Assembly (NCBI GenBank): GCA_025462785.1
Contig: JAOAPG010000149.1
Span: 1-37,520 of the forward strand
From: Acidobacteriaceae bacterium
GTDB lineage: Bacteria > Acidobacteriota > Terriglobia > Terriglobales > Acidobacteriaceae
DNA length: 37,520 nt
Direction of reading: 5' to 3'
Below are positions 14,510 to 18,042 of this stretch, piece after piece (the first letter of the stretch is position 1; each line of letters opens with the position of its first letter). Both the position numbers and the translations under genes were made by a program. Under the pieces are notes generated by a model. That model made no database searches and was not told the DNA's origin. It was given only the letters and a program-made list of their open reading frames with translations.

Positions 14510-14977
14510 TTACGGAATCTGCTCTTTGGTCTTGGATCGATATGCGAAAATCACCGCCAGCAAAGGCGGCGCCAGCAGGACTCCCCAGAACGGCAACGTG
14601 AATCCAAATACTATTGGCGTTAAGATTGACGCCCAGACCGGCACCTTCGATGTTCGTTTCATGATCATCGGCTGAAGCACAAATCCGTCGATCACCGCGA
14701 TTGCCGCATAAAGGATCAGAACATAGGCCGGATGTTGCCAATCCCTCCAGTGAGCGGTTGCCGCGAGAACCGGACCAATCAATCCCAGCACTGGGCCAAG
14801 ATGGGGAACAAATTGCAAGATCGCAGCCAGAAACGCCCAGAGCGGTGCCCATGGAACTTTCAGAACATAGAGCCCGACCCACCACAGAATTCCAACAGAA
14901 CACGAATCCAACAGTTGGGCAATGAACCAACTCTTGAGCGCTCTGCCCGTGAGGCGTAGATGTTCTCCGAATTTCAA
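14510..14977 (-). pseudogene. AI-2E-type (PerM family) transporter, C-terminal half only
   Basis: 155 aa: LPWAPLWAF-like region VPWAPLWAFLAAILQFVPHLGPVLGLIGPVLAA...IDGFVLQPMIMKRTSKVPVWASILTPIVFGFTLPFWGVLLAPPLLAVI resembles the C-terminal part of the family (~350 aa). In-frame TAA lies shortly upstream of the TTG start. Confidence 0.65.
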
Positions 14978-15940: not shown

Positions 15941-17032
15941 ATGTCCACAGCCAAAGTAGCCGGGGTTCTTTCTCAACACGTACTTTCTGACGAAAACGTT
16001 TTGAGCACCGCAGAACGGGACCTCATCTCACGTCTTATAGCCCGAGCCAGGATTTCTGCACAAACCAACGACCGTCCATTGCCTCAGTCAATTGCCCGGC
16101 TTGCGGGAGAGATCATTGCAGAGCGAATGTATAAGAATCTGGGTGCAGACATAGAACGCCTGCTACTGGAGCTCGACTCTGAATTCTCCGATCTAAGTAT
16201 TCCAATCCAAGTAGGTGCCGGTTCACCTCCTTCACCTTCTCCGATGCAAGTACCGCGCAATCCCGGCCCTACACCCCCAGCAATTAGCTCCGTCGTGCGT
16301 ATGGGACCGGGTTCACCTACCCCGACCCCACCCGTGCAAGTGCCGCGCACGCCTGGCCCGAATCCGGGCGCGTCGACTGCCATGAATTTCGAAGGAAGGA
16401 GGCCAAGCACAAGGGACCTCCCCGAGGTTTTAACCGCACAATGCGTCCTCTTTGAGGAATTTCTTGCACCGGAAGAGTTGAACAACTTGATGCAGGACAC
16501 TTTTCAACGGGAAATGGACTTTGAAATCAGCGAAGTTATTTCTCCCGGGCTCACGGCTGGAGCCGTCGATTTCGAGTGTAGGCGATCGCGCGTCCTTATG
16601 GACGCGGGCGCGCATCGCGATGTGATCCTCAATCGGATACAAAGCTGTTTAGCAAGGGTGGTGGAAAAGCTCGGGTTACAGCCGTTTTCTCCCACACACG
16701 CAGAAGTCCAGATTACCGCCAGTAATCACGGAGATTATTTCCGCTGCCATAGCGATAACGGTCATGAAAACCTCAACTCGCGAGAGCTTACCTTCGTCTA
16801 CTTCTTTCATAGGGAACCAAAGAGGTTTCAGGGGGGCGAATTGCGGCTATACGATTCGCGATGGGAGAACGGAGCTTACGTAGCCACCGAGAATTATCGT
16901 GCTATTATGCCTCGACAAAACCAGATCGTTCTGTTTCCCAGTTCATTGCTGCATGAGATTACACCGATAGATAGCTCTGCGAAGGCATTCGCGGACAGCC
17001 GCTTCACGGTGAACGGATGGCTTCATCGCTAG
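15941..17032 (+). CDS. 2OG-Fe(II) oxygenase (prolyl 4-hydroxylase-like) with N-terminal extension and duplicated Pro-rich linker
   Basis: C-terminal YFRCHSDNGHE (HxD), FQGGELRLYDS, IVLFPSSLLHEITPI (distal His), RFTVNGW (Arg). AGGAGG SD at 15926-15931. Pro-rich region 16214-16366. Confidence 0.82.
   Translation: MSTAKVAGVLSQHVLSDENVLSTAERDLISRLIARARISAQTNDRPLPQSIARLAGEIIAERMYKNLGADIERLLLELDSEFSDLSIPIQVGAGSPPSPSPMQVPRNPGPTPPAISSVVRMGPGSPTPTPPVQVPRTPGPNPGASTAMNFEGRRPSTRDLPEVLTAQCVLFEEFLAPEELNNLMQDTFQREMDFEISEVISPGLTAGAVDFECRRSRVLMDAGAHRDVILNRIQSCLARVVEKLGLQPFSPTHAEVQITASNHGDYFRCHSDNGHENLNSRELTFVYFFHREPKRFQGGELRLYDSRWENGAYVATENYRAIMPRQNQIVLFPSSLLHEITPIDSSAKAFADSRFTVNGWLHR
16214..16366 (+). repeat. 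Duplicated proline-rich coding module, 90-bp period
   Basis: GAGSPPSPSPMQVPRNPGPTP (16214-16276) and GPGSPTPTPPVQVPRTPGPNP (16304-16366). Confidence 0.8.
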
Positions 17033-18042
17033 ATCTTGGAATTGGCTATGGGTCTGCCACAGATTTTATGGCGGACCACACTAACTTCCCCGAGCGGCTT
17101 TTTTATTGCCGCCTGGACGAACAGCCGGATCACCTCGTTCCGGAACGCTACCTCCAGGACGAGCCACGGGAGGATTCGGCTGAGCGTCCGCTCTTTGTAA
17201 ATCCTCAATTTCAGTTCGCTCGAAATGGATTGCCAGATTCGCTGCAGCACCTCGCTCCATCGTTGGACAATTTTGACCTTCGAGGAGACGTTATCTGGAT
17301 CAAAGCGATCGGCAGCCGGGCTGCCCTTCCCTTCTGGGTAGAACCTGAATTTATGTCAATAATGGCGGGAATGCGCCCGGGCAATCAAGCTCCAACCGCG
17401 CTCTCCCCCGAACGCAGGCGAGTCCTCGCGATGGCAGGGGTACTGGTTCCGCCCGATTACGACTCAGCGAGGCGAAGGCACTGGGAGACTGACATCGAGC
17501 TTTGTGCAACGAAATTCTCTCAGCGAAAATATGTCCCCATCGGTCGCCTTATCCATCCTTTTCACATCTCGGCCCTGCGTCGTTATTATCGACTACTGAT
17601 CCGTCGGGGCAGGCTGAAATTAGGAGACTCTCAAACAGCACGCCGATATGGCGCACAGAACGAAAGCGTGTCGCGGTTTTTTCATCAACAACTAACACCA
17701 ACCGTAAGCGCGATCGTCGGGCAGCCGGTGAAGCCGTCTTATACCTATCTCGGTTCTTACCAGAGCGGGGCCAACCTCGAGATTCATACTGACCGCGAAC
17801 AATGTGAATTCAGCATCACCTTTTGCTTAGATTTTTCCCCTGAACCGCGTCACGAAACGCCTTGGCCTATACATCTGCACACCAGCAAAGGAAAAGCGAC
17901 CGTCTTTCAGGGCCTCGGCGACTCGCTAATCTATTGTGGTGGAGAAATCCCGCACTCCCGAGACGTTTTGCCCCCAGGCTATACATCTACCTCGATTTTC
18001 TTCCACTATGTGCGAGAAAGCTTCCAAGGGAGACTGGACTAG
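17017..18042 (+). CDS. Putative second 2OG-Fe(II) oxygenase-like protein with uncharacterised N-terminal region
   Basis: C-terminal LEIHTDREQCEFSITFCLDF (HxD-like) and GDSLIYCGGEIPHSRDVLPPGYTSTSIFFHYV (distal His); overlaps preceding gene by 16 bp. Alternative ATG at 17068. Confidence 0.6.
   Translation: MASSLDLGIGYGSATDFMADHTNFPERLFYCRLDEQPDHLVPERYLQDEPREDSAERPLFVNPQFQFARNGLPDSLQHLAPSLDNFDLRGDVIWIKAIGSRAALPFWVEPEFMSIMAGMRPGNQAPTALSPERRRVLAMAGVLVPPDYDSARRRHWETDIELCATKFSQRKYVPIGRLIHPFHISALRRYYRLLIRRGRLKLGDSQTARRYGAQNESVSRFFHQQLTPTVSAIVGQPVKPSYTYLGSYQSGANLEIHTDREQCEFSITFCLDFSPEPRHETPWPIHLHTSKGKATVFQGLGDSLIYCGGEIPHSRDVLPPGYTSTSIFFHYVRESFQGRLD

Follow-up and report, generated by a model that had tools for sequence, protein, structure and literature searches.

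The stretch of DNA analyzed here (37,520 nucleotides, hereafter the window) carries on its forward strand the gene for a three-part protein, P0001, followed by the gene for a second protein, P0002. The features discussed below are as follows.

15941..17032, + strand: P0001, ORF of 363 aa with a helical N-terminus, a Pro-rich repeat linker and a C-terminal 2OG-Fe(II) oxygenase
15941..16204, + strand: N-terminal helical domain of P0001, residues 1-88, delimited by alignment and predicted helices
16214..16276, + strand: Pro-rich module copy 1, GAGSPPSPSPMQVPRNPGPTP, from the in-frame translation
16304..16366, + strand: Pro-rich module copy 2, GPGSPTPTPPVQVPRTPGPNP, in frame and 90 nt downstream of copy 1
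16421..17029, + strand: catalytic domain of P0001, residues 161-363, delimited by invariant residues and Foldseek
17017..18042, + strand: P0002, 341 aa, a second protein with an oxygenase fold, its start overlapping the end of P0001

Domains of P0001 and its oxygenase neighbor

A preliminary description of the window had reported duplicate Pro-rich modules with a 30-aa period at 16214-16366, placed between an N-terminal helical region and a P4H-like domain. Both statements hold, as the two copies lie 90 nt apart in frame and are followed by a PF13640 oxygenase domain, which passes its gathering cut-off (64.9 bits against 27). Alignments show that the three-part layout is common to the orthologs. 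The structure model, of moderate confidence in this part, predicts N-terminal helices at residues 3-16, 23-42 and 47-82; residues 98-158 have a pLDDT below 50 and are predicted to form a disordered linker, and the C-terminal domain is modeled as strand-rich. Searches of PDB and Pfam with the N-terminal domain gave no convincing match, the few weak Pfam matches coming from single members. Within a 299-genome sample of the class this domain is present only in fused proteins of the P0001 family, and the one remote match in the class search was itself a fused protein. P0001 is probably cytoplasmic, since no signal sequence was noticed.

The prolyl-hydroxylase-like character originally proposed for the C-terminal domain agrees with its sequence, its fold and an invariant HxD...H...R set. 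Residues H270, D272, H338, R354 and W360 are invariant in an alignment of 20 sequences, and by analogy with PHD2 the first three are predicted to bind iron and R354 to bind 2OG. R354 lies six residues before W360, which from our own comparison we take to be the position of the 2OG-binding arginine in PHD2. C-P4H uses lysine for 2OG, in contrast to the arginine of the P0001 catalytic domain. The best solved-structure match to a profile of 20 relatives is a Dictyostelium prolyl hydroxylase (6t8m), and a Foldseek search with the P0001 model places the P. putida P4H (4iw3, in complex with EF-Tu) first, then PHD2 and other PHDs including 6t8m. All 50 Foldseek matches listed are the P. putida P4H, PHD2, or a Dictyostelium or Trichoplax PHD, with moderate TM scores of 0.50-0.66 by target length. 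Sequence and model together thus place the catalytic domain nearest to the bacterial and HIF-type prolyl hydroxylases, with prolyl hydroxylation as its predicted activity.

P0002 has no match in Pfam or NCBIfam and none in a sequence search of PDB, and across 22 members of its family the Pfam search returned only one chance match (E 0.16). Its oxygenase assignment is therefore resolved only by fold: the model (pLDDT 83.6) has as its best Foldseek match the P. putida P4H 4j25, with a TM score of 0.73 normalized by target. In the alignment of 22 sequences H257, D259 and H313 are invariant and the Arg or Lys that usually anchors 2OG does not stand out, so that the activity of P0002 is predicted from its fold. 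The pairing of P0001 with P0002 is conserved, with a P0002 homolog at 23 of the 30 loci retrieved for relatives; the remaining 7 include contigs that end near the gene as well as distant homologs. Upstream of the fused gene lies purQ in 6 of the 8 loci listed (of the other two, one lies on a contig that ends before purQ, and at the second the ORF picker did not resolve it), and a Ser/Thr kinase gene lies downstream on the opposite strand in all 8, as it does in the window. A short ORF upstream of purQ in the window (14510-14977, - strand) resembles by eye a fragment of an AI-2E-type permease, and a similar ORF, also upstream of purQ, is found at one other locus (L032).

Repeats in the linkers of the fused family

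The two modules of the window are identical at 36/50 nt (72%) with a spacing of 90 nt (30 codons), and their proteins match at 13 of 21 positions, 6 of these 13 being specified by different codons. The best self-offset of the linker has a score of 6 at offset 30 (p ~0.01 by residue shuffling). The duplication in P0001 alone is thus modest, above chance and not overwhelming, and the case therefore rests on the family.

Within the order, 36 of 298 genomes contain homologs, distant ones included, at E <=1e-15. A contig scan with the single P0001 protein as query returned no relatives, whereas a scan with an alignment succeeded and gave 80 named loci, about 40 of which encode fused Terriglobia proteins; the viral contigs held one partial relative. 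Linkers were compared in 19 full-length orthologs and in the set of named loci, two sets that overlap because several of their loci lie on shared contigs. Across the 40 fused linkers tested, the mean Pro content is 26% and most are repeated, with a self-match beyond all 300 shuffles in 37. The preliminary description would have been contradicted by homologs with an unrelated, non-Pro linker, and there were none among the fused loci examined. The repeat units vary strongly by lineage (PQPPS, GPGPK, APRPPSPGPPSPG, GPQPPSGPQPPSVKRPPMKD, EPDPPGVRAPTKPLREAPLPPSPK, FAPRPPSPGPPSPG and others) and are present in 2 to 8 tandem copies, the highest count being the 8 copies of FAPRPPSPGPPSPG at one locus (L091).

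The more distant homologs, mostly cyanobacterial, differ in their N-terminal regions and carry few repeats or none. Among 55 other homologs in which 40 or more residues precede the catalytic domain, the mean Pro content is 12% and repeats are found in 7, mostly EIPA-type tetrapeptides from one cyanobacterial group. The fused clade is recovered in a tree with support of 98/95 (14 fused sequences sampled), and the Pro-rich repeat segment is characteristic of it. Two loci (L065 and L077) were considered as fused-family members without the N-terminal part and rejected, that part being encoded in another frame; they are frameshifted, by error or decay, and are not counter-examples. A fused protein from another family of the class (L145, genome G446) has GPGPK-type repeats instead of the PQPP type, together with the N-terminal domain as in P0001 and an adjacent P0002 homolog.

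Pro-rich repeats also occur as ORFs of their own beside standalone oxygenases. In three Okeania genomes a small Pro-rich ORF upstream of tandem oxygenase relatives repeats a 16-aa unit, IPGPPGPPAPVEGELR, 6, 4 and 3 times, and its start and the stretch just before it are conserved. At a further locus (L055), which branches off just outside the fused clade (support 85/77), a Pro-rich ORF lies upstream of the oxygenase and in frame with it, separated by a single TAG that may be natural or an assembly error, with a possible ATG 15 nt after the TAG. Near the other standalone homologs, among them an additional 29 cyanobacterial loci and another 20 stretches, no comparable small repeat ORF was found, so that the evidence for the separate arrangement comes from two lineages.

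Selection on the repeat copies and the role of the linker

Differences between repeat copies, pooled over 19 genes, comprise 261 synonymous and 69 non-synonymous changes, a pN/pS of 0.10, where the 19 genes are not fully independent because the genomes share ancestry. In a neutral simulation, in which a copy was mutated at random to equal divergence and the best-matching segment then picked identically, pN/pS ranged from 0.57 to 1.22 over 200 runs. The fact that segments are picked identically means that any bias toward protein similarity in the choice of segment is in the main covered. Gene conversion alone is a poor fit, since it would homogenize the synonymous sites too and these have diverged. 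The comparison points to strong purifying selection that keeps the repeat copies alike in protein. The window pair (pS 0.68, pN 0.28 over 25 codons) is less well conserved than the pooled family pairs and is either older or less constrained.

The leading explanation, to which we give a probability of about one half, is that the repeats would be a built-in, multi-site peptide substrate, hydroxylated by the protein itself or within a dimer. The preliminary description had proposed auto-hydroxylation or hydroxylation by the second oxygenase, an idea that is partly supported here and gains strength from the family comparison. P0001 would then be a prolyl-hydroxylase-type enzyme fused to its own peptide substrate, its disordered Pro-rich repeats being offered to the catalytic site within their own chain, or to that of the other subunit if the protein dimerizes, and the prolines of each repeat would become hydroxylated; P0002 probably works on the P0001 repeats too, or acts after P0001. 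From the sequence we infer alike the hydroxylation of the repeats, the enzyme responsible, its action in cis or in a dimer, and the role of the product. The intact catalytic residues, the predicted prolyl-hydroxylase-like fold, the predicted disorder of the linker, the Pro-rich repeats across the fused family, the selection between repeat copies and the co-conservation of P0002 would all fit such a substrate, as would the separate Pro-rich ORFs beside related oxygenases. The rapid change of unit between lineages seems natural for a tethered substrate that needs only a proline in a suitable context. Against the substrate reading, units that differ so widely by lineage would call for an enzyme of relaxed specificity or for co-evolution, selection on the repeat sequence would fit a binding motif too, most standalone homologs lack a nearby Pro-rich repeat ORF in the stretches scanned, and PPHD, a characterized bacterial relative, hydroxylates a folded protein, EF-Tu (PMC7864055). 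The broader generalization, that a clade of bacterial prolyl hydroxylases hydroxylates its own multi-copy, fast-changing Pro-rich substrate and has split-gene relatives, is put forward more tentatively.

The repeats could instead be docking or scaffold polyproline, itself unhydroxylated, that keeps a partner close to the active site, be it P0002, a second P0001 chain of a dimer or the true substrate. Selection on the repeat sequence together with the multiple copies fits multivalent binding, and P0002 is encoded beside P0001 in most loci, but the units change completely between related genomes, a change that any conserved partner would need to track, and a Pfam search over 22 members recognized no known peptide-binding domain in P0002. 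We consider this explanation rather doubtful. The preliminary description had also allowed for a simple flexible linker; the predicted disorder agrees with this, but the purifying selection between copies argues against a plain spacer. A linker that is only a flexible spacer between domains, with Pro-rich tandem repeats arising from replication slippage, would account for the free variation of linker length and copy number, slippage being easy in such DNA, and in related cyanobacterial proteins too the catalytic domain is preceded by a short stretch that is mildly rich in Pro. Such a spacer has, however, no need for copies that stay alike in protein while diverging synonymously; the Pro content and repeats are moreover specific to the fused clade, and Pro-rich repeats occur as separate ORFs too. 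For these reasons a plain spacer seems unlikely. That the repeats form a pseudo-substrate, closing the active site until they are displaced by another substrate, for instance a translation factor, seems highly improbable. PHD-type relatives do act on other cellular proteins, as PPHD does on EF-Tu (PMC7864055), but autoinhibition needs one site rather than 2 to 8 tandem copies and leaves the separate Pro-rich ORFs unexplained.

Known systems and further gene contexts

The fold and the iron/2OG pattern of P0001 are those of the PHD-type enzymes (PPHD, 4iw3/4j25; PHD2/EGLN1; Dictyostelium PhyA, 6t8m), which act on separate proteins, folded or disordered, namely EF-Tu, HIF and Skp1 (PMC7864055); P0001 differs from them in having a repeated Pro-rich segment within the chain and an N-terminal helical domain without a convincing match. 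The C-P4H alpha subunit has N-terminal dimerization, middle and C-terminal catalytic domains and acts on repeated Pro-rich peptides, which it binds through the middle domain (PMC12433258). Its middle domain thus binds the peptide substrate, whereas the middle of P0001 is itself a Pro-rich, substrate-like sequence. The nearest architectural parallel is found in the borosins (OphMA; split SonM/SonA), in which the enzyme is fused to its peptide substrate or encoded beside it and which carry a helical binding or leader domain (PMC8429565). In P0001 and its relatives a repeat segment, here a putative substrate, is fused or adjacent. The chemistry of borosins is that of an alpha-N-methyltransferase, in contrast to the 2OG-Fe(II) oxygenase domain of P0001, and the fused borosin core is C-terminal whereas the Pro-rich segment of P0001 is internal, between two domains.

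Searches of the open-access literature found no prolyl hydroxylase described as carrying Pro-rich repeats within its own chain, which is weak evidence as subscription papers were mostly outside this coverage, and open-access work on autohydroxylation and on RiPP prolyl hydroxylases yielded nothing on point. If the substrate reading is true, the sequence of P0001 would reveal the substrate of a bacterial prolyl hydroxylase, and the protein would add an enzyme-substrate fusion with oxygenase chemistry. It would also raise the question of what leads soil Acidobacteria to retain a self-modified Pro-rich module in a conserved chromosomal place beside purQ.

Relatives of either protein are found in several other gene contexts. 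P0002 homologs at two loci (L150, genome G738, and L154, Hyphomicrobiales UR115) lie near ORFs that are PqqD-like and HprK-like by eye, and one ORF of this set combines a Tat-like signal with a tail rich in Cys and Pro. On a plasmid of Eleftheria terrae (L152) a 2OG-Fe(II) oxygenase relative lies near genes annotated as sulfotransferase, aspartyl/asparaginyl beta-hydroxylase and pyruvyl transferase, the P0002 match falling inside the gene annotated as sulfotransferase, and on a plasmid of Pseudanabaena galeata (L153) an oxygenase relative lies near genes annotated as Nif11-like leader peptides. Two further loci (L053 and L054) have distant oxygenase pairs downstream of two large genes of unassigned function, the first of which carries at L053 a stretch of KPIVPV repeats.
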